Shown: positions 7,436 through 34,472 of the stretch, one piece after another
How the letters are laid out: every line of letters begins with the position of its first letter
Position numbering within the stretch: position 1 is the stretch's first letter
DNA from: Candidatus Fonsibacter lacus
GTDB taxonomy: Bacteria > Pseudomonadota > Gammaproteobacteria > Burkholderiales > Burkholderiaceae_C
NCBI GenBank assembly: GCA_009921245.1
Contig: RFXW01000006.1
Location: 1 to 34,579 of the forward strand
Direction of reading: 5' to 3'
DNA length: 34,579 nt
Notes under the pieces: model-generated
What the model saw: the letters and a program-made list of their open reading frames with translations, nothing else
Databases searched by the model: none
What the model was told of the DNA's origin: nothing
Made by a program: the position numbers and the translations under genes

Positions 7436-8602
7436 TCAGGAAGATAAAGGCTGCACCTGCCAGCCTTGAGGGGTTTGCACCAGCTCGCGGTCGCACACCA
7501 AGGCGTCTTGACCCAAGGCGTGACCCGGCAGTTCGCAAATAACCACATGCCCGGCCTGGCGCAGCGCTTCGATGGCCTGCGCAAGCTCGGCATGATCGTG
7601 CCACGGCGCGCGGATGGCGCGCGGGGCCTCGGCCTCGGGCAAAGCACGCGCCAGTTCTTTGATATCCAGACTGAACCCCACGGCCGGGCGTGAACGCCCA
7701 AACACAGCGCCCACTTCGTCGTAGCGGCCACCGCGTACCAGCTCGATCGGCTCGCCCGAGTCACGCAAACACCCCACCACCGCAAAGCGCAGCCCGGTGT
7801 AGTAGGCGTAGCCCCGCATGTCAGATAAATCAAAGCTCACCTGGGCGCCCTGTGCGCCGTTGGCCAGCGCTTGCAGGTCTTCCAGCGCTTGGGTAATTAA
7901 CGGCAACGACGGCAACTGGGTGCGGGCGCGCTCCAGCACCGTGATGTCGCCGTGCAAGCTGGGCAAGGCACGCAAGCCGTCGCGCACCGGTTGCGCCAGG
8001 GCAGCGGTGAGCGAGGCCAACTGCCCCACGTCTTTGCGTGCCAGGGCTTGGTGCACCGCTTGCGCCACGCTGGCGTCGATGGGCTGACCCTGCAACAGCG
8101 CGCGCACGATGCGTACATCGGCACAGTCCATGACCAGCGATGACACCCCCGCTTGCCGCAGCGCGTCGAGGGCAAGTTGTTGTATTTCGTGTTCGGCCTC
8201 ACGCCCAGCGTAACCATAGATCTCGGCACCAAACTGCAGTGGCTCGCGCGTGGCCTGCGCACGCGCTGCCCGGGCATGGGCCACCGGGCCGCAATAGCAC
8301 AGGCGCGTAACACCCGGCCGGTTCAGCAAGTGCGCGTCCACGCGTGCCACCTGAGGGGTGGTGTCGGCACGCAAGCCAAGGGTTCGGCCGCTGGTTTGGT
8401 CGACCAGCTTGAAGGTCATGAGGTTCAGCGCCTCACCGGTGCCGGTGAGCAGCGATTCGATGTGCTCAAGCAACGGCGGGGTAACCAGCTCGTAGCCATG
8501 GACCATGGCGCGGTCGAGCAGCTGACGCCTAAGGATTTCCACTTGCCGCGCTTGGGCAGGCAGCAAGTCGGCAATGTGATCGGGCAATACCCAGGCGGAC
8601 AT
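7436..8602 (-). CDS. hisZ: ATP phosphoribosyltransferase regulatory subunit (HisRS-like)
   Basis: HisRS-like fold: [88 protein letters not shown]. Lies between hflC and purA. Confidence 0.92.
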
Positions 8603-21234: not shown

Positions 21235-24200
21235 CTAGCCCACCGCGCGGCGTGCGTTGTGCCACAGCTGCATCCACGGGCTGGGCTCACCGATATCACC
21301 TAACGACCAGCTCCACTGAGCGTAGCGAAAGCCGCGCTCGGGATGCGGCATCATGATGGTGACCCTGCCGTCTGTGGTGGTGAGTCCATTGATACCTTGT
21401 GTGCTGCCGTTGGGGTTGTACGGATAAGCCTCGGTGGCTTGGCCATGGTGATCAACAAAACGCAGCACGCTGTGCGCCGCGGCCGCTTGATCGGGCGAGG
21501 CAAATACCGCCCGCCCCTCGCCATGTGCCACCACCACAGGCAGGCGGCTGCCTTGCATGCCAGTGGTAAACAAACTGGGCGAAGGCACGATCTCTACCAA
21601 GCTCAACCGTGCCTCGTATCGATCACTGGCGTTGGGCTTAAACGCCGGCCAATGCTCGGCGCCTGGAATGAGCGGGGCCAGATGCGCCAGCATTTGACAG
21701 CCGTTGCACACACCCAACGTAAAGGTGTTGCCGCGCGCAAAAAACTCGCCCAACATGTCGCGCAATAGGGGGTTAAAACGCCAACTGCTGGCCCAGCCCA
21801 AACCGGCACCCAGGGTGTCGCCGTAACTGAAGCCGCCGCACGCCACCAAGCCGGTAAATTCAGCCAAGTCGGCGCGGCCGTGTTGCAGGTCGCTCATGTG
21901 CACATCCACCGCCTCAAAGCCGGCCAAGTCAAACGCCCGCGCCATCTCAACGTGCGAGTTCACACCCTGCTCGCGCAGCACCGCCACGCGCGGTCGGTGG
22001 CTCAGCACCGCCGGGGCCAAAGCAAACGTGAGATGGGTATGCAGCCCAGGGTCCGCTGGGTCGCCCCGACTGGCGTGCTCGGCGTCGGCGGTGAGCGGGT
22101 TGTCGCGCGCACGAGCCATGCGCCAGCTTACGCTGTCCCAGACTTGGTGCAAGTCCTGCAAGGTGGCGCCAAACACCACCTGGGTGTCGCGCCACACTTG
22201 AAGCTCGGGGGTGTCCTGGTGCAACAACGTCATGCCCACGCAGTGGCTGCAAGCGCCCAAGCCGTGTTCGCGCAGCACCGCCAGGGCTTGGTCGCGGTGC
22301 GCGCGCGAGACTTGCAGCACCACACCCAGTTCCTCGTTAAAGAGGGCACGCAGCGTGGATTCATGGCGCCGCGCTTGCACTTGGGACGACCAGTTTTTGC
22401 TGTCGCCCACATCCATGCGGCTGTCGCTGATGCCGTCGCCCTCCAGCAACAACATGTCGATATTCAACGTCACCCCCACCTGTCCGGCAAACGCCATCTC
22501 GGCCACGCACGCAATAAGGCCACCGTCGCTGCGGTCGTGATAAGCCTGCAACCAACCGGCACCGCGCAAGGCGTTGACGGCTTGCACCAAGGCCACCAGG
22601 TCGGCGGGCTGATCCAGATCGGGCACGGCGCTCTCGGCCTGGGCCAGCACCTGCGCCAAGATGGAGCCGCCCAGGCGTTGTTGGCCGCGCGCCAAGTCCA
22701 CCAAAATCAAGGTGCTTGGCTGTTCACGCTGCAGCTGCGGTGTCAGGGCGCCGCGCACGGTGGGCAGTGTGGCAAAAGCCGTAACCACCAGCGTCACGGG
22801 CGAGCTCACTTGGTGCGCCTGGCCGCTGTCGTCTTGCCACTGCATACGCATGGACAAGCTGTCTTTACCCACTGGAATCGAGACCCCCAATGCCGGGCAC
22901 AACTCATGACCCACCGCTTGCACCGCGTCGTACAGTGCCGCATCTTGTCCGGGTTGCCCGCACGCGGCCATCCAGTTGGCCGATAGTTTGACGGCACCCA
23001 AGTCAATCGGCGCCGCCAACAAATTGGTGATGGCCTCAGCCACGGCCACGCGCGCCGACGCCGCCGCGTTGTGCACCGCCAGCGGGCTGCGCTCGCCCAT
23101 GGCCATGGCCTCGCCGCCCAAGCTGTCGTGGTCGGCCAGGGTGATGGCGCAATCGGCCACCGGCACCTGCCACGGGCCCACCATTTGGTCGCGATGCGTG
23201 AGGCCGCCCACGCTGCGGTCACCGATGGTGATTAAAAAACGCTTAGAAGCCACGGTGGGATGCGCCAGCACCTGAATCACCGCGTCTTGTAACAGGGTAT
23301 CGTCCAGCCGCAGCCGAGACAACGGCACCGGCGCACGCGTGTCGCGGCGGTGCAGGCGTGGCGGCTTGCCCAGCAGCACGTCCATGGGCATGTCGATCAC
23401 CGGGGTTTGCTCGTTGAGCAGCTGCAGCTGCGGTTGGTCGGTGCTGTAACCCACCACCGCCATGGGGCAGCGCTCGCGCTCGCATAGGGCACGCAGGGTG
23501 TCCAGCCGCTCGGGAGCCACCGCCAAGACGTAGCGCTCCTGGCTTTCGTTGCACCAAATTTCGCGTGGCGACAAGCCACTGGCTTGCAAAGGCACGGCCT
23601 GCATGTCAAAGCACGCGCCTTGACCGGCGTCGTGTACCAGTTCGGGAAAGGCGTTGGAGAGGCCACCGGCGCCCACGTCATGAATGGCCAAAAGTGGGTT
23701 GTCGGCGCCCATGGCCTGGCAGTGCGTGATCACCTCTTGGGCACGGCGCTGCATTTCGGGGTTGGCACGTTGCACCGAGTCGTGATCGAGCGCGGTGTCG
23801 TTGCTACCACCCACCAAAGAGCTGGCGGCCCCCCCGCCCAAGCCAATGCGCATGCCCGGCCCGCCAATTTGCACCAGCAAGCTACCGTGACCAAACCGAA
23901 CTTTGCTGACCTGATCGGCGTCGATGCTGCCCAATCCACCGGCGAGCATGACCGGTTTGTGGTAACCCATGCGCTGCGCTTGCCCGTTGTACTCAAAGGT
24001 TTGCTCAAAGCTGCGAAAGTAACCCGCCACATTCGGACGACCGAACTCGTTGTTAAATGCCGCCGCTCCCAACGGGGCATCGCGCATGATGGTGAACGCA
24101 CTGGCCACGTGCGGCGGCACCGATGGCGGTGGCGTGGGGTCGTCTGGCCAATGCAAGCCCGAGACGCTGTAGCCCGTGACACCGGCTTTGGGCAGGGCGC

Positions 24201-25251
24201 CACGCCCGGTGGCGCCTTCGTCGCGAATTTCACCGCCAGCCCCAGTGGCTGCCCCTGGCCACGGGCTGATGGCGGTGGGGTGGTTGTGGGTTTCCACCTT
24301 CATCAGCACATGGCGCAAGCCAGGTCGCACTCGGTAAGCCGCCGGTTGGGCTGCGCCCGCCGCGCTGAACTGGCGCACCGGTTGGCCTTGCATCACGGCG
24401 GCGTTGTCGGCGTAGGCCACCACCGTGCCCTGCGGCCGCTGCTGGTGGGTATGCCGAATCATGTCAAACAGGCTATGCCTTTGCGTTTGGCCATCGATTT
24501 CAAAGCGGGCGTTGAATATTTTGTGCCGACAGTGCTCGCTGTTGGCTTGGGCGAACATCATCAACTCAACGTCGCTTGGGTTGCGGTTTAGGGCCCGAAA
24601 GGCTTGCTCCAAGTAAGCAATTTCATCGTCATCCAAGGCCAAGCCCATGCCAACATTGGCCGCACGCAGCGCCGCCTGGCCTTGCTCCAGCAAGGGCACA
24701 TGCTGCATGGGCAGCGCGGCGCTCGGTTGAAACATTTGCCACACCGCGTCGGCATTTTCAAAAACGCTTTCAGTCATGGGGTCGTGCAAGCGTTGCGCAA
24801 CACGCAGCCATTGCGCTGCGTCGAGCGGCAACCGGCTGTGCGCAGGCGCGCCGCCGTAGGTGGCCTGCCAACACCACACGCGCTCCAGCCGCGACACCGC
24901 AATACCCGCGTTGTACGCCAAATCCACCGCCTTGCTGCCCCACGCAGAGACCGTGCCCACGCGCGGCGCCACCCACACGTTTAAAGTATGTGTGACCGTT
25001 GCAGGGGCTGACCCCTGCAGCGGTGCGCCCAACAGCGTGGCCAATGACTGGGCTTGTTCCGGCCGCAGATCATCGGCCTGAGCCAAATACCAAGGGCATA
25101 CCGTGACTGTGGCGCCGGGGCCCAGTTCGGCGTCTAACCACGCATGCACCTGACGCAGCGGTGGTGAAAACCCAAATAAAACCGGTGAACCAATAAAAAG
25201 CGCGCGGGTGGGGGACACAAGCAAACGGTCCAATAAGGCAATAAAGAGCAA
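21235..25251 (-). CDS. purL: Phosphoribosylformylglycinamidine synthase
   Basis: About 1338 aa. [69 protein letters not shown], class I GATase [12 protein letters not shown]...GVCNGCQML and catalytic HGEGR. The start codon at 25251 is TTG; an in-frame GTG at 25218 is an alternative. Confidence 0.95.
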
Positions 25252-25346: not shown

Positions 25347-27017
25347 ATGACCGCCCTGCCCGAAGCCCTGGTGAATCAAGCGCTGCTTGAGGCGGTTTGC
25401 TGGCGTGCCTGGCCCAAGCAGGGCTCGCAGCGGCTGGCGGAGGCTTTGCAAGCGTTGCGGCCGCACGCCACCGATGAAGCCAGCGCCCAAGCGGTATCGC
25501 AAGCGCAACAGGCGCTGCAACTGGCAGACGCTGACCAAGCCACCGCGGCGGTGACGCATCACCTAAGCGTAAGCCCGCCTCCGCCCAGTTCAAACGAGGC
25601 CAGCGAGCCCGCGGTGGATTTTGTTGCCGAAGCCCTTGACTGGCTGGAGCAAGCCGAGGCTGCGGCGTTGCAACTGGAGCAACAAACCGCAAACGAGGCG
25701 GCGTGGCAGCATCTCAAGCGCGCACTGCACAGCATTAAGGGCGGGGCCGGCTTGAGTGCACGCCAAGCGCTGGTTCAACACATGCACCAATTGGAGCAAC
25801 AACTTGCGGTTGCGCCTGAGCGCGTGGCCTGGGATGACCTGTTGGCTGGACTCGACCAAGCCCGCACCCTGCTAACCGGCAACGAACCAAGCCATGGCCA
25901 AGGCGCACACTGGCGCCTAGACCAAGCGCAAATGGATGACTTGCAAGCCCGCTGCGACGATTTGCTGCAACTGCAGCACACCTTGACACACAGCGCACCC
26001 GAAGAGGCCGCGGCAACCTTGGCGCACATCACCCGCCACAGCAAGCGCTTGGCGCAACAGGTGCAAGCCCTGCGCTTGCAGCCACTGCAGCCTTTGCTCG
26101 ACGCCATGCAACGGGTGGTGCGCGACGCCGCCAAAGCCTATGAAAAAGAGGTTCACCTGCGCATTCATGGCGGCCAAGTGACGCTGGATGCAGGCATGGT
26201 GCAAGCGCTGCGCGAGCCGCTTGGCCATTTGTTGCGTAACGCGGTGGCGCATGGCATTGAAAGCGCAGCGGTGCGGCAACAGCACAACAAGCCGCGTCAC
26301 GGACAGATTGAGCTCACGGTCAGCGCCTCTGGCCGAACGGTGCAAATTGATATCGCCGACGACGGCGCAGGCATAGACGAGGCGACGCTGCGAACCCGGG
26401 CCGGACTGGGGCCAGACGCGGCGCTGATTACGCTGCTGGCACAGCCCGGGCTAAGTACCAGCGAAAGCGCCAACCTGGTGGCGGGGCGCGGCATGGGCGT
26501 GCACGCCGCGCAACAGGCCATCCAAGCCTTGGCCGGCGCGCTGAGCGTGGAACATGAGCCACAGCGTGGCTGCCGCTGGCGCATCAGATTGCCGCAGTCG
26601 CTGGCGCTGCAAAGCGTGGTGCACGTCTCGGTGGGGCCATACGCCATGCTGATCCCAACGGTGCATGTGCTGCGCGTGGTTGGGCCCGGGTCGGCGCCCG
26701 AGCCAGCCGACCCGCCACAAGCCGCGCTCCACGCCCATGCCTGCTTTGGCCAAGGGCTGCCCAACACCCCCACCGAGACAACCTGGCAGGTGTGGCTGCA
26801 GTCGGGCGCTGGGCGCTACCGTTTGCTGGTAGACGGCGTGCACGGCGTGCACGATCTGCTGATACGCCCCACCGACCCGTTGCTGGCCCACCTGGCGCAC
26901 GTCACCGGCCACGCCCGACTGCCGGACAACCGCGTGTTATGCGTGGTTAACCCCGATGCCCTTTACTTTGCGCTGAACCGCGCACCCCGCGAAGAAGCTG
27001 ACCCATGCGTAACCTAA
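25347..27017 (+). CDS. CheA-like chemosensory histidine kinase (HPt, HATPase, C-terminal CheW-like domain; no fused receiver)
   Basis: HPt His in [13 protein letters not shown] (CAC 25728-25730). [31 protein letters not shown]...[18 protein letters not shown] (N box), [10 protein letters not shown] (G1), [23 protein letters not shown] (F/G2). CheW-like tail [21 protein letters not shown]. Confidence 0.9.
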
Positions 27018-28561
27018 CCATCACCCAACGAATTTTTTCTGTTTATGTGCTCACCATTGCCTTGGTGGCTGCTTTTGGCTGGATCGCCTACCAAGCCATC
27101 ATGGGCAGCACGCGCGGCGTCAACGCGGTATCGCAAAGCCATGTGCCGCGCACCGTGCTGTTGTCGGATATCAATGAGGTGATGAACGCCAACGAATTTT
27201 TGGGTTCGGTCTACCTTTACGCCGACACCCAACAAAGGCGCTCCATGGTTGACGCCTACGACGTCAGCCGTCAACGACGTGACGCGCTGATGCAACAACT
27301 GCATACCTTGGACGATACGCTCACCAAAAGCCAATCCATGGCCACACTCGATCAAGCGATTGCCGATTTGGACGCTGCCGTGCTGGCCTTTACTGCGGCG
27401 GTGCAGCAAGGGCGTATCAGCAGCTTGGCCGATAGCCCGATTGCGCTGCGCTTGGAGACCCAGCGTCAAGCCGCCCAGCAGGTGCTATTTAAGTTAATTG
27501 ATCAGGCCCAAAGCCAGGTGATGACGCGCAGTCAAGAGGTGGCCAGCGAGCTGCGCCAACTGCAATGGCAAACGCTAACCATGGTGGCCACGGTTATGGT
27601 GCTGACCCTGCTGGCCGGCGCGGTGGTCAGTCAAGGTATCAAGCGTTTGTTACAAAGCGCCACCGATCGACTCAAACTCAGCACCAACGCCAATCGCGAG
27701 CACGTGGGTCAGCTGCGCGAGACCAGCCAAAACCTGGTCAAAGGTGTCAGCCAACAGGAACACGCGGTGCAAACCGTAAGCCAAGCCCTGGCGGAGGCCA
27801 ACCGCCGCACCCACGACACGGTGCGTGAAGCCAGCACCGCGCGCGAGCAAACCCGCCACGCCCAACAATCGGCCCAAAGTGGGCTGCAAGCCATGCAAGA
27901 TTTGCAACACGCCATGCTGGAGGTGGAACGCTCAGCCAAAGAAATGGCCTACATGGTGCGCAGCATCGACGACATTGCCAGTCAAACCAACATGCTGGCC
28001 CTCAATGCCGCAGTTGAAGCCGCGCGCTCGGGCGAGGCCGGCGCCGGCTTTGGCGTGGTCGCTGACGAGGTACGAGAACTGGCCCAACGCAGCGCCGAAG
28101 CCGCCAAAGACACGGCGCGCCGTATCGACGCGGCCATGACCAGCGCGCAAGCGGGTATCCAAAGCTGCAGCGCCATGGCCAGCGCCTTACAAGGCATTGT
28201 TGAGCAGGTCAGCACCGCCGACGAAGCCGCGCAGCGCATCGCCAACAGCGCCCGCACCCATGCAGACGATTTGCAGCGCATGGCGCAAGACATGGACGGC
28301 GTGCATCAGGTGGCCGAGCAAACCCACCGCCACGCCCAAGATACCCAGCGCGTGGCCGAGGCACTGGCCGCCCAAACCCGTATGCACAATGAGCTGATGC
28401 TGGCGCTGCAGCGCATGGTGCAGCGCGCGGGCCACGCCGCCCTACCCCCCGAACCGGCACCTCGGCCCTGGCCCGCCAGTCAACCCGTGGCGGCCTTGGC
28501 GCACAGCAGCGACGAGTCCACCGTGCCCTACACCCCGACGGCGCATCGCGCCCATCATTGA
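27005..28561 (+). CDS. Methyl-accepting chemotaxis protein (periplasmic 4-helix-bundle type sensor)
   Basis: Two TMs flanking a helical periplasmic domain, and the signalling tip [56 protein letters not shown]. Confidence 0.93.
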
Positions 28562-28565
28562 CGAC

Positions 28566-28970
28566 ATGAGCACGGCGGGCGCCAGACGCCGCTACACCGC
28601 CCACACCCGCGCCGCGCCCGCCACCATGGCGTTGCGCACCAGCGCGGGCGACTGGACGGTGGCCATGACCTCGGTTCGCCAAGTGGTGCCGTATGCCACG
28701 CTCACCCCTTTGCCACTGGCCCCAGCGGCCGTGTTGGGCTTGTTGCCTTGGCGCGGGCAAGCGGTTCCCGTGCTTCATCCGCCCGGCACGGCGGCCGCGC
28801 CATCGGCACCGAATGCAGGCCCTCATGCCAGCCAAATCGTGTTGCTGCAATTGCCTGCCCAGCAAAGCGTGGTCGGGTTGCCCGTGCTGCAGGTGCTATC
28901 CCACGCCGCTCCGCAAACGCCCTGGCTCGACCTTGAGGCGTGGTGGCAAAACGCCCGCCTAAGCGCATGA
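28566..28970 (+). CDS. CheW-like adaptor (short, divergent)
   Basis: WTVAMTSVRQVVPYATLTPLPLAPAAVLGLLPWRGQAVPVLHPPG...IVLLQLPAQQSVVGLPVLQVLSH matches the CheW pattern (V.EVV..., P..V.G....RG...PV.., I......VGL.V..V). Located between the MCP and CheB genes. Confidence 0.75.
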   Translation: MSTAGARRRYTAHTRAAPATMALRTSAGDWTVAMTSVRQVVPYATLTPLPLAPAAVLGLLPWRGQAVPVLHPPGTAAAPSAPNAGPHASQIVLLQLPAQQSVVGLPVLQVLSHAAPQTPWLDLEAWWQNARLSA

Positions 28971-29896
28971 TTGGCGTGCTGGTGGTGGATGATTCGGCGC
29001 TGGCGCGCGACTCGGTGGTGCGCGCGTTGGCCTGCGACGACATTGAAATTTTGGCCCAAGCCAACGATGCCTTTGCCGCGCGTGACGTTTTGCAAAATCT
29101 CAACCCCGACGTCATCACCCTAGACCTTGACATGCCGGGCATGGACGGGCTCACCTTTTTGCGCATGCTGCAGGCGCATCGGCCGGTGCCGGTGGTGGTG
29201 TTGAGCGCGCGCGCACACAGCGACCCGCAATGGGCAACGGCGTGCCTGCAAGCTGGCGCCTCTGACGTGCTTGCCAAGCCCGACAGCCCCCTGGCCTTGG
29301 CCGCGCTCAGCGCCGAATTGCAACGTGCGGTGCGCGCCGCCGCACGCAGTCAACAAGGCCAAGGTCGGGTGCCCGACGCGGACGACCCCGCCACCCCCAA
29401 GGCGCAGGCGGTGGTTGCGATTCAAAGCAGCAGCGGCGCGCTGCCGTGGCTGCTGCAAGCCATTAAGTCTTGGCCCAAGCACGGTGCGCCCTGGGTGATC
29501 GTGCACCCCACCGCGGCCGGTTACGAACAAGCGTTGCTGCAATATCTGCAACAACAACAGCAACACCCGGTGGCACTGGTGGAGTCAACCGTGCCGCTGC
29601 AGCCGGGCCAGGTGTGGTTGGCCCCAGCGCAACAGCACGTGGTGTTGGGCGGCGACAGCGCGCAGCCCGAACTCACCTGCGTGACTGGCCCCGCCATTCA
29701 AGGTGCCTGCCCCAGCGCCGACGTGCTGTTTACCTCGGGCGCACGCCACTGCGCCAGTGCGGCAGTGGCGTTGCGACTGGTGCTGGGCCCAGGTGACGGG
29801 GTACAAGGCCAACGCGAGGTGATGCGTGCCGGTGGCTTGGCACTGGCACCCCCGCTGCACGACTGGATGACCGACGCCTGGCAGGCCACCACATGA
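28967..29896 (+). CDS. CheB-like protein: intact receiver domain plus divergent, C-terminally short methylesterase domain
   Basis: Receiver: VLVVDDSALARDSVVRAL...VITLDLDMPGMDGLTFLRML...VVVLSARA...DVLAKP. Esterase-like: VVAIQSSSGALPWLL (Ser), WVIVHPTAAG (His), PGQVWLAPAQQHVVL, LVLGPGDGVQG (Asp). Confidence 0.85.
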   Translation: MIGVLVVDDSALARDSVVRALACDDIEILAQANDAFAARDVLQNLNPDVITLDLDMPGMDGLTFLRMLQAHRPVPVVVLSARAHSDPQWATACLQAGASDVLAKPDSPLALAALSAELQRAVRAAARSQQGQGRVPDADDPATPKAQAVVAIQSSSGALPWLLQAIKSWPKHGAPWVIVHPTAAGYEQALLQYLQQQQQHPVALVESTVPLQPGQVWLAPAQQHVVLGGDSAQPELTCVTGPAIQGACPSADVLFTSGARHCASAAVALRLVLGPGDGVQGQREVMRAGGLALAPPLHDWMTDAWQATT

Positions 29897-31050
29897 GCGC
29901 AAGCGAACTGCCGCCACCCCCCACCGCCGAAGCGATTGAAGCGTTTTGGCGTGGGCCAGCGTTGGCCGCGCCCGATCAAGCGCACCTGCTGGTGGTCAGC
30001 GCCAGCGCCAGCACGCACGACATGCTGCGCCAGGTGCTGCTGCCCTTGGGCGGCACGCTGCACCACGCCACCCACACCGAGCAAAGCCACGACCTGTTGC
30101 AACTGCAACCGGTGGATGTGGTGTTGCTGGCCCTTGGACCGGACAACCTGGCTTGGCTCAATCAACCCCTACCACCGCTGCCACAACGCCCCACCGTGCT
30201 GGCGCTGAGCACGCGCGACAACCATGAGGCGGTGCGCTCGCTGCTGCAGCAAGGCGCCCACGACGTGCTTGGCATAGACGACGCCGCGGCCTTGTTGCGC
30301 GCGCGTGTACAAGCCAGCCTTGAGCGCCAACGGCTGCAACGCGAACAAAGCCAAACCCTCAGTCAGTTGCGCCAAGAGCGCGAGGCGCTGGCCGTGCAAC
30401 GCGAGCGCGCCGACAACTTGCTGGCCAACATTCTTCCGCCATCGGTTATCAAACGGCTAGGCAACGCCGAGCAACAAGTGGCGGACGCACACGCCAGCGT
30501 CAGTGTGTTGTTTGCCGATTTGGTGAACTTCACCGCCTGGGCCAACACCCAAACGGCCCAAACCACGGTGCATGCGCTGAACCAGATTTACACCGCTTTT
30601 GACCGTGCCACCCAAGCCGCCGGGGTAGAAAAAATCAAAACCATAGGCGACGCCTACATGGCCGTGGCCGGTTTGGCCCCGCCTTTACCCGACCATGCCA
30701 CCCGCTGCGCGGCGCTGGGGTTGCAGCTGCAACGGCTGTTACACGAGCTGGTTGCGCAGCATCAATGGCCGCTTAACTTGCGTGTAGGGATACACAGCGG
30801 GCCGGTGGTGGCCGGCGTCATTGGCGAGCATAAGTTTGCTTACGATGTGTGGGGCGACACCGTGAATACCGCCAGCCGCATCGAATCGGCGGCACAACCC
30901 GGCAAAGTGCTGGTCTCAGCCAGCACCGCGCTGGGGTGTGACGACAGCCTGTCGCTCACGCCCCAAACCCCGCTGCCGCTTAAGGGTTTGGGCATGGTGC
31001 AAACCTTTGAGGTGCAGCTTAAGCACCCCACTCAAACGCCAATGGGATAA
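29893..31050 (+). CDS. Class III adenylate cyclase with N-terminal degenerate receiver-like domain
   Basis: N-terminal response-regulator-like fold (about residues 31-147), coiled linker, LLANILPPSVIKRLG, then the cyclase domain: metal Asp VLFADLVNFT and IGDAYMAVAG, substrate Lys EKIKTIGD, Asp YDVWGDTVNTASRIES with Asn and Arg. Confidence 0.9.
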   Translation: MSASELPPPPTAEAIEAFWRGPALAAPDQAHLLVVSASASTHDMLRQVLLPLGGTLHHATHTEQSHDLLQLQPVDVVLLALGPDNLAWLNQPLPPLPQRPTVLALSTRDNHEAVRSLLQQGAHDVLGIDDAAALLRARVQASLERQRLQREQSQTLSQLRQEREALAVQRERADNLLANILPPSVIKRLGNAEQQVADAHASVSVLFADLVNFTAWANTQTAQTTVHALNQIYTAFDRATQAAGVEKIKTIGDAYMAVAGLAPPLPDHATRCAALGLQLQRLLHELVAQHQWPLNLRVGIHSGPVVAGVIGEHKFAYDVWGDTVNTASRIESAAQPGKVLVSASTALGCDDSLSLTPQTPLPLKGLGMVQTFEVQLKHPTQTPMG

Positions 31051-31058: not shown

Positions 31059-31862
31059 ATGCTGATTACCTACAAAACCGACGCCGACATCGAGGGCATG
31101 CGCGTGGCCGGACGACTGGCCTCTGAGGTGCTGGACTACCTCACCCCCCACGTGCAGCCTGGCATCACCACCGAAGCCCTTGATCGGCTGGCGCATCAAT
31201 ACATTGTGGAGCAACAACAGGCCATACCCGCACCCCTGAACTACTGCCCGCCAGGCTACACCCCCTACCCCAAGTCAATCTGCACCTCGGTGAATCACAC
31301 GGTTTGCCACGGCATTCCCAACGCCAAACCGCTGAAAAAAGGCGACGTGGTGAACATCGACATCACCGTCATCAAAGACGGCTGGCACGGCGACACCAGC
31401 CGCATGTTTGTGGTGGGCGAGGCCTCGATTGCCGCCAATCGGCTGTGCCAAGTCACCTACGAGGCCATGTGGCGCGGTATTCGCATGGTGCGCCCCGGGC
31501 GGCGCTTGGGCGACATTGGCCACGCCATTCAAACCTTTGCCGAAGGGCAGGGCTACAGCGTGGTCAGAGAGTTTTGTGGCCATGGCATTGGGCGTGGTTT
31601 TCACGAAGATCCGCAGGTGCTGCACTATGGCCGCCCGGACACCGGCGAGGTTCTTGCTGCAGGTATGACCTTCACCATTGAGCCAATGATCAACGCCGGG
31701 CGGCGTGACATACGCGAAACCGGCGACGGCTGGACCATCGTCACCAAAGACCGATCACTCTCAGCGCAATGGGAGCACACCGTGCTGGTCACGGCCGACG
31801 GCTTCGAGGTGCTCACGGTCTCGGCCCAAAGCCCGGCTGAGCCTACACCCAGCGCAGCCTAA
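31059..31862 (+). CDS. map: Type I methionine aminopeptidase
   Basis: KTDADIEGMRVAGRLASEVLDYL, CTSVNHTVCHGIPNAKPLKKGDVVNIDITVIKDGWHGDTSRMF, CGHGIGRGFHEDPQVLHYG, GMTFTIEPMINAG. Confidence 0.97.
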   Translation: MLITYKTDADIEGMRVAGRLASEVLDYLTPHVQPGITTEALDRLAHQYIVEQQQAIPAPLNYCPPGYTPYPKSICTSVNHTVCHGIPNAKPLKKGDVVNIDITVIKDGWHGDTSRMFVVGEASIAANRLCQVTYEAMWRGIRMVRPGRRLGDIGHAIQTFAEGQGYSVVREFCGHGIGRGFHEDPQVLHYGRPDTGEVLAAGMTFTIEPMINAGRRDIRETGDGWTIVTKDRSLSAQWEHTVLVTADGFEVLTVSAQSPAEPTPSAA

Positions 31863-31865
31863 ACC

Positions 31866-34472
31866 GTGGCCTTGCCCAGCGCCACCCTAGAGGGCATCAA
31901 AGAACGACTGGCTGCGGCCAAACTCACCGCACTGCAACCGCTGCACAACCCCGCATTGCCGCCGCGCGGGGTGCAAGGGGTGGGGCGCGACCTGGCCCGC
32001 GCGACCGACGCCACCTTGCATGAACTGTGGCAAGCCTGCGGGCTGGGGCCGGACTGGTCACTGATTGCCGTGGGTGGCTACGGACGCGGCCAGCTGGCGC
32101 CGCACTCGGACGTCGATGTGCTGCTGATCAACGCCCAGGCCAACCCTGACCACGCGGCAGTAGAAACTTTTGTGCAAGCCTGCTGGGACGTCGGCTTGGC
32201 CATTGGCTCGGCGGTTCGCACACCGCTGCAAACGCAAGAGGCCGCGGCCGAGGACGTCACCACCCTCACCGCCTTGCTGGAAGCACGGCCGCTGATCGAC
32301 CCCAGCGCGCAATGGCCTGGGCTGCTGCAGGCGCTGCGCGAGGGGCTTGACCGGGTGGCGTTTTTTCAAGCCAAGGTACGTGAACTCAAACAGCGCCATC
32401 AGCGCTTTGACGACACCGCCTACGCCTTAGAGCCCAACTGCAAAGAGGCGCCCGGTGGCCTGCGCGATCTGCACACCATACGCTGGCTAGCCAACGCCTG
32501 CGGCTGGGGCGATGGCTGGGAGGCCATGCAGCGCAATGGACTGATTTCGGCACTGGAGCGCCAGCGCTTGGCCAACCATGAGGCCACGCTTAACTTAATT
32601 CGGGCACGGCTGCACACCCTAACCCAGCGTCGCGAAGACCGCCTGATATTTGATGTGCAAACCGCGTTGGCCCACCGCTTTGGCATGCAAGACCGATTGG
32701 CCAAAGACGGCAAACGCCTGATCAGACGCGCCAGTGAACTGCTCATGAAGCGCTATTACTGGGCGGCCAAAGGCGTGCGTCAACTCACCGACATTTTGCT
32801 GCCCGCCATTGAGCAGGGCCTACACCCGGAGTGGCCGCAATCGGGCCAGCCCATAGACCAAGATTTCACCTTGCGCAGCGGCTTATTGGACATTGAAGAC
32901 GAGCACTTGTTTCAGCGCAAGCCCGCGGCCATATTGCAAGCCTTTGTGCATTTTCAGCGTGTGCGTGGGGTGGACGGCATGGCCCCGCGTACCCTGCGCG
33001 CTTTGTACCATGCGCGCGCGGTGATGACACCCCAGTTTGGCCAACACCCCACACACCGCGCGCTGTTCATGCAATTGCTGCAAGCACCCCAAGGGCAAAC
33101 CCATGTGTTTCGCTTGCTCAACCGCACCTCGGTGTTAGGGCGCTACCTTAGGCCATTTCGCCGCATCGTGGGGCAAATGCAGCACGACTTGTTTCACATA
33201 TACACCGTGGACCAACACATACTCATGGTGTTGCGCAATGTGCGGCGTTTTTTTATTGCCGACCACGCCCATGAATATCCCCTTTGCAGCCAATTGGCGG
33301 CGGACTGGGACAAGCCCTGGCTGCTTTACGTAGCCGCGCTCTTTCACGACATCGCCAAAGGCCGTGGCGGCGATCACTCCACCTTGGGTGCGCGCGAGGT
33401 GCACCGCTTTGCCAAAGCCCACGGCATGACCGATGAAGACCGCGACCTGGTGGCGTTTTTGGTGATGCACCATCTCAGCATGAGTCATGTGGCGCAAAAG
33501 CAAGACCTTTCCGACCCCGACGTGATCCAAGCCTTTGCCCAGCGCATGGGCAACGCACGACGTTTGACCGCGTTGTACCTGCTGACGGTGGCCGATATCC
33601 GTGGCACCTCACCCAAGGTGTGGAACGCCTGGAAAGGCCAGCTGCTGCAAGATTTATTCAGCCGCACGCTGCGGGTGTTGGGCGGTGAGCACGTCAGCCA
33701 AGACACCATGGTGCGCAGCCACCAACGCGACGCCCTGCACATACTGGCCAGACAGGCTTTACCCCACGATGCCCACCAGCGTCTATGGCAACAACTGGAT
33801 GTGCGCTACTTTTTGCGCCACGATGCCGACGAAATCGCATGGCACACGCGCCACGTCAGCCGGGCCTTGGCCCTGAATCAAGTGGGGCACGGCCTGGCCA
33901 AGGCCAGACGCTCGCACCGCAGCGATGGCTTGCAGGTCATGGTGTTTTGCCCCGACCAGCCCGACCTATTCGCGCGCCTGTGCAGCCAGCTCAGCGTGGC
34001 CGACCTTGAAGTCCTCGACGCCAACATTTACACCACGCACGACGGCTATGCCCTGGACACCTTTGAAGTGACCGCTCCCGACATGGCTGAGCAGCCACGC
34101 GAGTGGATGGCCATGCTTGAGGCCAAGTTGTCGGCGGCGCTGGCCACCAACGCGGCACTGCAACCACCGCGCGCCGGGCGCGTCTCGCGCCGCGTACGTC
34201 ACTTTCCCACCCCGACACGCATCAGCTGTCGACCCGATGAAAGCGGCAAACAATTTTTGATCACGGTGGCCTCGGCCGACCGCAGCGGGTTGCTTTACAC
34301 GCTGGCGTACACCTTTGCAAAGTTTGAACTCGAGGTCTTGTTGGCCCGCGTCTCTACTTTGGGCGAGCGCATTGAAGATATTTTTTTGGTGCGTGGCGCG
34401 GCCCTGGCCGATACCCGCAAGCGCAGCGCTTTTGAGGCGGCACTGCAAACGGCGATTGACGCCCCAGCCTAA
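31866..34472 (+). CDS. glnD: Bifunctional [protein-PII] uridylyltransferase / UMP hydrolase
   Basis: GTG start. NTase GGYGRGQLAPHSDVDVLL, YALEPNCKEAPGGLRDLHTIRW, HD motif LFHDIAKGRGGDHS, two C-terminal ACT-like regions. Confidence 0.97.
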   Translation: MALPSATLEGIKERLAAAKLTALQPLHNPALPPRGVQGVGRDLARATDATLHELWQACGLGPDWSLIAVGGYGRGQLAPHSDVDVLLINAQANPDHAAVETFVQACWDVGLAIGSAVRTPLQTQEAAAEDVTTLTALLEARPLIDPSAQWPGLLQALREGLDRVAFFQAKVRELKQRHQRFDDTAYALEPNCKEAPGGLRDLHTIRWLANACGWGDGWEAMQRNGLISALERQRLANHEATLNLIRARLHTLTQRREDRLIFDVQTALAHRFGMQDRLAKDGKRLIRRASELLMKRYYWAAKGVRQLTDILLPAIEQGLHPEWPQSGQPIDQDFTLRSGLLDIEDEHLFQRKPAAILQAFVHFQRVRGVDGMAPRTLRALYHARAVMTPQFGQHPTHRALFMQLLQAPQGQTHVFRLLNRTSVLGRYLRPFRRIVGQMQHDLFHIYTVDQHILMVLRNVRRFFIADHAHEYPLCSQLAADWDKPWLLYVAALFHDIAKGRGGDHSTLGAREVHRFAKAHGMTDEDRDLVAFLVMHHLSMSHVAQKQDLSDPDVIQAFAQRMGNARRLTALYLLTVADIRGTSPKVWNAWKGQLLQDLFSRTLRVLGGEHVSQDTMVRSHQRDALHILARQALPHDAHQRLWQQLDVRYFLRHDADEIAWHTRHVSRALALNQVGHGLAKARRSHRSDGLQVMVFCPDQPDLFARLCSQLSVADLEVLDANIYTTHDGYALDTFEVTAPDMAEQPREWMAMLEAKLSAALATNAALQPPRAGRVSRRVRHFPTPTRISCRPDESGKQFLITVASADRSGLLYTLAYTFAKFELEVLLARVSTLGERIEDIFLVRGAALADTRKRSAFEAALQTAIDAPA

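Follow-up and report, generated by a model that had tools for sequence, protein, structure and literature searches.

A reduced chemosensory cassette ending in a class III cyclase gene in a Candidatus Fonsibacter lacus genome

The stretch of DNA analysed here (the window) is 34,579 nucleotides of contig RFXW01000006.1 (positions 1 to 34,579) in assembly GCA_009921245.1 of Candidatus Fonsibacter lacus, Burkholderiales. It contains a compact chemosensory cassette of five genes, the last of which encodes a class III cyclase with a receiver-like N-terminal domain. The cassette is probably a reduced representative of a Che-adenylate-cyclase family found mainly in betaproteobacteria. Its cyclase would act independently of phosphorylation, and control by the array, if there is any, would be through protein contact or CheB. 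This reading is held with moderate confidence. Arrays that control cyclic AMP (cAMP) and arrays with receiver-cyclase outputs are already known. The cassette family is little described, and the window holds a reduced variant of it.

Linkage of the cyclase to chemosensory genes

The window proteins were identified by Pfam profile E-values, and the source is one fragmented metagenome-assembled genome (MAG) that is 88.8% complete. The features are as follows.

25347..27017, + strand: CheA histidine kinase, 556 aa (Hpt 6.5e-8, HATPase_c 8.3e-13, CheW 3.7e-5)
~25620-25859, ~26214-26597 and ~26763-26963, + strand: Hpt, HATPase_c and CheW-like domains of CheA
27005..28561, + strand: chemoreceptor (methyl-accepting chemotaxis protein, MCP), 518 aa (MCPsignal 4e-33)
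28566..28970, + strand: CheW, short at 134 aa (CheW 1e-9)
28967..29896, + strand: CheB, 309 aa (Response_reg 1.5e-23, CheB_methylest 1.1e-19)
~28970-29293 and ~29414-29893, + strand: intact receiver and degenerate, C-terminally truncated methylesterase of CheB
29893..31050, + strand: putative class III adenylate cyclase with altered receiver, 385 aa (Guanylate_cyc 1.8e-52)
29983..30276, + strand: pseudo-receiver of the cyclase, with a predicted receiver-like fold in which the DD pair is SA, the phosphoacceptor D is A, and the K is I
30286..30432, + strand: long signalling helix linking receiver to cyclase (predicted helix 132-180; HNOBA-like Pfam match)
30478..31017, + strand: class III cyclase catalytic domain (D209, D253, K249, D318, N325 and R329 present)
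31059..31862, + strand: map, methionine aminopeptidase, a synteny marker (79% identity to the Map of locus L037)
31866..34472, + strand: glnD, a synteny marker
21235..25251, - strand: purL, the divergent upstream flank and a synteny marker

The genes for CheA and the MCP overlap by 13 nt, a 4-nt gap separates the MCP gene from cheW, and ATGA overlaps join cheW to cheB and cheB to the cyclase gene. The co-directional run extends past the cyclase, to map after an 8-nt gap and to glnD after a further 3-nt gap. The E-values of the five proteins exclude chance open reading frames. Thus, the five co-directional genes and the junctions given in a first-pass annotation of the window were confirmed by the reading frames and the Pfam identities.

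Linkage was examined in 251 genomes of the family (the window’s genome counted in), in an order-wide census of 399 genomes, and in named GTDB genomes. The top full-length homologues of the cyclase outside the window, among the family genomes, were in G093, G217, G088, and G125. The surrounding DNA of each has che genes adjoining a gene for a receiver-adenylate cyclase fusion (REC-AC). The set was also present in a Comamonadaceae MAG (L048), an uncultured Ferrovum (L049), and two uncultured betaproteobacterial MAGs (L054 and L067), and a short contig (L068) carries CheW plus REC-AC. In the isolate Polynucleobacter nymphae the cassette is split, with cheB-cheR-REC-AC at one locus (L065 9944-11062) and mcp/cheA/cheW at another (L199 9313-13794). 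In all, 14 che-linked REC-ACs, mostly betaproteobacterial, were found besides that of the window. In the order census, REC-ACs scoring at least about 500 bits were found in five genomes (G615, G088, G495, G389, and the window’s), and che genes were present at all five loci. None of the eight lower-scoring loci that were inspected had a che operon, and they had either no such genes or hybrid kinases beside the cyclase; in one of them, L191, a CheB-like gene lies at the edge, about 6 kb off. In a tree of 58 REC-ACs, the 15 che-linked sequences (the window’s among them) grouped with two others at support of 85/94. These two, both labelled unlinked, are a paralogue in G125 (L040) and a REC-AC from a contig with a Planctomycetaceae label on which CheB is encoded too (L069). 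A single clade of these 17 was not rejected (p-AU 0.54). Plasmid searches gave only REC-cyclases with no che linkage shown, or che operons with no cyclase. A chance association of cyclase and che genes is ruled out by the recurring linkage, the census, and the tree grouping. The conserved neighbourhood supports the part of the earlier proposal that makes the cyclase a dedicated partner of the che genes, and the cyclase has ATP-type class III residues.

A fuller version of the locus is present in G217, of the same genus. It reads purL and two single-domain cyclic nucleotide monophosphate (cNMP)-binding proteins on the minus strand, followed by cheA-cheW-mcp-mcp-cheR-cheB-REC-AC-PDEase_I-map-glnD. 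One of the cNMP-binding pair matches slightly under the Pfam cut-off (27.0 vs 27.5 bits). Since the purL and map-glnD flanks are common to both, the two cassettes occupy the same chromosomal slot, and the shared order makes a misassembled contig unlikely. The cassettes of G217, L048, P. nymphae, and the uncultured Ferrovum share with the window a gene set in which a homologous REC-AC comes last, and all four keep CheR and an intact cyclase receiver. A class I phosphodiesterase gene (PDEase_I) directly follows REC-AC in L048 as in G217. It also lies near the cassette in G615 and in G125, where its match is under the Pfam cut-off and two cNMP-binding genes are present as well, and in L067 a cNMP-binding gene directly follows REC-AC. 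Not every cassette relative has PDEase_I, and it was found in none of 14 control genomes. Judged by gene content, the relatives encode a putative writer, reader, and eraser of cAMP alongside the chemosensory array.

In contrast to G217 and L048, PDEase_I was not found in the assembly of the window’s genome. The window has a REC-AC beside cheA, cheW, mcp, and cheB; the D/D/D/K receiver is missing, and CheR was found neither in the cassette nor elsewhere in the 88.8%-complete assembly. Because its cyclase receiver lacks D/D/D/K, the window is filed as a variant of the cassette by descent. On another contig of the same genome (L144, G000:C204), two overlapping single-domain cNMP-binding genes are present on the minus strand (7672-8022 and 8015-8329). 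They are homologous to the pair that lies between purL and cheA in G217, with identities of 41% for one and 27% for the other. A second class III cyclase, with PAS-like regions, is encoded at L035 (G000:C58, 7653-9101). Its frame stops about 40 residues short of the end of the Guanylate_cyc profile and may be frameshifted or truncated.

A kept cyclase and an altered receiver

The residues D209, D253, K249, D318, N325, and R329 are all kept in the cyclase and align with those of relatives. In class III cyclases, the first two bind metals, K249/D318 form the ATP-type purine pair, and N325/R329 are the transition-state pair. With all of these catalytic residues kept, the enzyme should use ATP, and a guanylate cyclase identity was ruled out by K249/D318. 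The top Protein Data Bank matches from Foldseek on the predicted cyclase model were adenylyl cyclase domains.

The N-terminal receiver was not recognized by Pfam. In the AlphaFold2 model, strands and helices alternate as in a receiver over residues 31-127 (pLDDT mostly 74-89), and a helix at 132-180 then leads into the cyclase domain. At the positions where other receivers have D, D, D, and K, this one reads S, A, A, and I. D/D/D/K is kept in 14/14 of the che-linked relatives and in 54/57 of the REC-ACs outside the window. The receiver is 26-33% identical to those of relatives, vs 43-50% for the cyclase domain. Judged by alignment and model, the domain is a predicted pseudo-receiver that keeps the fold while the two acids of the pocket, the Asp that would accept phosphate, and the Lys are lost. 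A multidomain response regulator, which serves as output in the class of alternative cellular function (ACF) arrays, is present here as a receiver-like fold fused to a cyclase, with the receiver dead.

The first-pass annotation had proposed a Wsp-like architecture, read here as a relay in which CheA phosphorylates the cyclase receiver and so switches cAMP synthesis. The operon architecture and the relatives with intact receivers speak for such a relay. However, the two pocket acids, the phosphoacceptor Asp, and the Lys are all missing here, and CheA-to-cyclase phosphotransfer was rejected for the window on these residues (SA/A/I). Wsp-style phosphotransfer fits the relatives and not the window, because the window receiver is without D/D/D/K. 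The canonical relay is therefore highly improbable in this organism, and that part of the earlier proposal is not supported at this locus.

The rest of the array shows a mixture of kept and lost parts. By alignment, CheA keeps the phosphoacceptor His, the N-box, G1 (DDGAG), and G2 (GRGMG), with F to L in the F-box. The MCP has a 4HB-like sensor (1.9e-5, slightly under the Pfam cut-off), no HAMP domain was detected in it by Pfam, and its hairpin aligns gap-free to E. coli Tar, a 36H-type length. The methylation pair E-E of Tar and L048 is Q-T in this MCP. The CheB receiver is intact, with D10/D11/D56/K kept. The esterase motifs of CheB are altered (GASTGG to QSSSGA, QHMPP to VHPTA, TGMGNDG to LGPGDG), and the C-terminal segment with ..VVFGMP is missing; equivalents of the Ser and Asp are still present, and the His is shifted by one position. 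The pattern of loss is selective, with the CheA His and the CheB receiver retained while adaptation and the chemistry of the cyclase receiver are gone.

Two further features of the MCP were noted. The chemoreceptors of relatives end in C-terminal aromatic pentapeptides (L037 5452 EFTDF, L048 4574 HFKDF, L060 4170 NFTKF). The Tar-type pentapeptide (NWETF in E. coli) is missing from the window MCP, which fits lost adaptation. The reading of IASQTN (F to S relative to Tar) as a defect was dropped, since other MCPs vary at this position.

We infer the biochemistry and the direction of signalling in the following scheme from gene content, linkage, synteny, and residue losses. In the ancestral fuller form, the MCP and CheW would set the activity of CheA, and CheA would phosphorylate the receiver of the cyclase, which is the natural reading for the relatives. 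The resulting rise in cAMP would be sensed by cNMP-binding proteins and ended by a class I phosphodiesterase, and the receptor would be adapted by CheR and CheB. In the window genome, adaptation appears to have been dismantled and the cyclase receiver to have become a pseudo-receiver. The cyclase most likely works as a dimer that needs no phosphorylation and is held by its pseudo-receiver and the long helix, still supplying cAMP to the remaining cNMP-binding proteins of the genome. Residual control by the array could be by protein contact or via CheB, with its receiver as the sole phosphate acceptor still intact among the five genes. There is a precedent for dimerization without phosphorylation in WspR, which is constitutively oligomeric when purified and behaves as in the wild type when the active site of its receiver is mutated (PMC2270323).

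The main rival is that the cassette is a relict. It would be decaying in a shrinking genome, where only the cyclase, and perhaps transcription into map-glnD, is still needed, and the MCP, CheA, CheW, and CheB are remnants. CheR, the second MCP, and the phosphodiesterase are lost, the CheB esterase is degenerate, and the cyclase receiver is dead. CheA, CheW, and CheB are shorter than those of relatives, and the assembly is smaller (2.0 Mb vs 2.4-2.9 Mb in the genus). However, no frameshift or stop is present across 5.7 kb and the tight gene overlaps are retained. CheA also retains its His and its ATP motifs, and CheB every receiver residue, next to parts that were lost. A relict is thus possible and somewhat unlikely, and the phosphorylation-independent dimer is favoured because the loss is selective. 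It is probable that the cyclase either functions with its own receiver unphosphorylated or is in part a relict.

Several points weigh against the favoured phosphorylation-independent cyclase. Absences elsewhere in the genome are provisional, as this MAG is fragmented and incomplete. The strong divergence of the window proteins makes accelerated evolution or decay possible. The window REC-AC lies on a long branch of the tree (end branch 3), and its exact placement is unsure. That the array and cyclase still communicate, if they do, is supposition. A more speculative scheme, considered improbable, is a two-receiver relay without CheY. CheA would phosphorylate the receiver of CheB, which would have lost its esterase role, and phospho-CheB would pair with the cyclase pseudo-receiver and switch cAMP synthesis. 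If true, a response regulator would serve as adaptor between an array that no longer adapts and a cyclase whose receiver is dead.

Flagellated and non-flagellated carriers

The window itself contains no cheY, cheR, or flagellar gene, in agreement with the first-pass annotation, but FliG was found elsewhere in the genome. FliG was also found in G217, G125, G093, G088, G252, and G256. No FliG match was obtained in the genomes of P. nymphae, L049, L054, and L067, of which the last three are MAGs. PilB/PilT-type ATPases were found in 11/11 genomes checked, in some merely as fragments. The census of the window’s assembly gave one CheA, one stand-alone CheW, and one MCP, and the only CheW-domain proteins are the CheA and CheW of the window. 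None of the nine receiver genes of the assembly encodes a stand-alone CheY; all receiver genes other than the window’s sit in open frames of at least 210 aa. CheW-family matches were confined to the cassette or cassettes in nine of ten relatives searched, and G256, a fragmented MAG, has extra matches on other contigs.

It is conceivable, and rather unlikely, that the only CheA of a flagellated cell steers swimming, with cAMP or phosphorylated CheB in place of CheY. This would agree with the FliG matches, with G217, G125, G093, G088, and G252 having no other CheA or CheW, and with the position of the G615 cassette beside a flagellin gene (by inspection). However, the same cassette is present in genomes with no FliG match, including that of the isolate P. 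nymphae, and CheY is neither in the cassette nor among the receiver genes of the genome. Because some carriers have no FliG match, the family is not purely flagellar, and in flagellated carriers the cassette may be the sole sensory input to motility. The array had been proposed to serve an alternative function rather than flagellar switching. The first part is consistent with these carriers. The second is uncertain, because flagella go together with a single CheA system in the window genome and in several relatives.

The G615 locus (L187, G615:C1:590000-609000) is in a 1.95 Mb single-contig genome. It reads FlaG-like, cNMP-binding, PDEase_I, and mcp-cheA-cheW-cheB-cheR-REC-AC. The stretch goes on with sulfate permease-STAS-cNMP-binding protein and then the flagellin gene (FlaG and flagellin by inspection).

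Relation to known systems

The Wsp system of Pseudomonas (WspA-F, WspR) is similar in that one receptor/CheA/CheW/CheB array is encoded with an output of receiver, helical stalk, and cyclase. WspR makes c-di-GMP with a GGDEF domain and its receiver is phosphorylated in vivo (PMC2270323), whereas the window output is a Guanylate_cyc domain behind a dead receiver. Membership in Wsp was ruled out by this output, by the absence of a REC domain from CheA (Pfam), and by the missing CheR. Of the Wsp-like architecture that had been proposed, the array with a receiver-cyclase output stands. The CheA without REC, the missing CheR, and the 36H-type MCP depart from it.

In Pseudomonas, the Pil-Chp CheA array, with CyaB and Vfr, controls cAMP, which is read by a cNMP-binding protein (PMC12632253). 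The window would be alike in having cAMP under a CheA array with a cNMP-binding reader. However, CyaB is a separate cyclase activated via PilG, with no receiver fusion in the operon, while in the window the cyclase gene closes the cassette and nothing like a PilG-type CheY was found.

REC-mononucleotidyl-cyclase fusions are listed among the outputs of cheR-TPR/ACF clusters (Munoz-Martinez 2012, PMC3447774). In the part of the survey consulted, only the domain name is given, and phosphodiesterase and cNMP-binding partners are not mentioned. That one-word listing was all that the literature search gave on a che-linked adenylate cyclase in this group, and no paper was found on an array with its own class III cyclase, phosphodiesterase, and cNMP-binding proteins. 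The window also differs from ACF pathways in having no CheR and a 36H-type MCP. The 36H length is associated with F7 systems (PMC7184735) and may point to an F7-like rather than ACF ancestry.

The cassette recurs in Burkholderiales as a candidate compact route from array to cAMP. Most of the carriers examined, some of them without a FliG match, have no CheA system besides it. It will be interesting to determine if an array can still control an output whose receiver cannot be phosphorylated, a question that the window variant raises.

Similar pairings were also seen under other taxonomic labels. Two 5 kb contigs labelled Planctomycetaceae (L060 and L069) have a REC-cyclase beside CheB, with an MCP end in L060. 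The cassette may really have spread there, or the contigs may be mis-binned. In Cyanobacteria bacterium UBA8803 (L086 2263-6475), a REC-cyclase precedes a lone receiver, a protein that by inspection resembles CheC, and an MCP, possibly an unrelated che-cyclase pairing.

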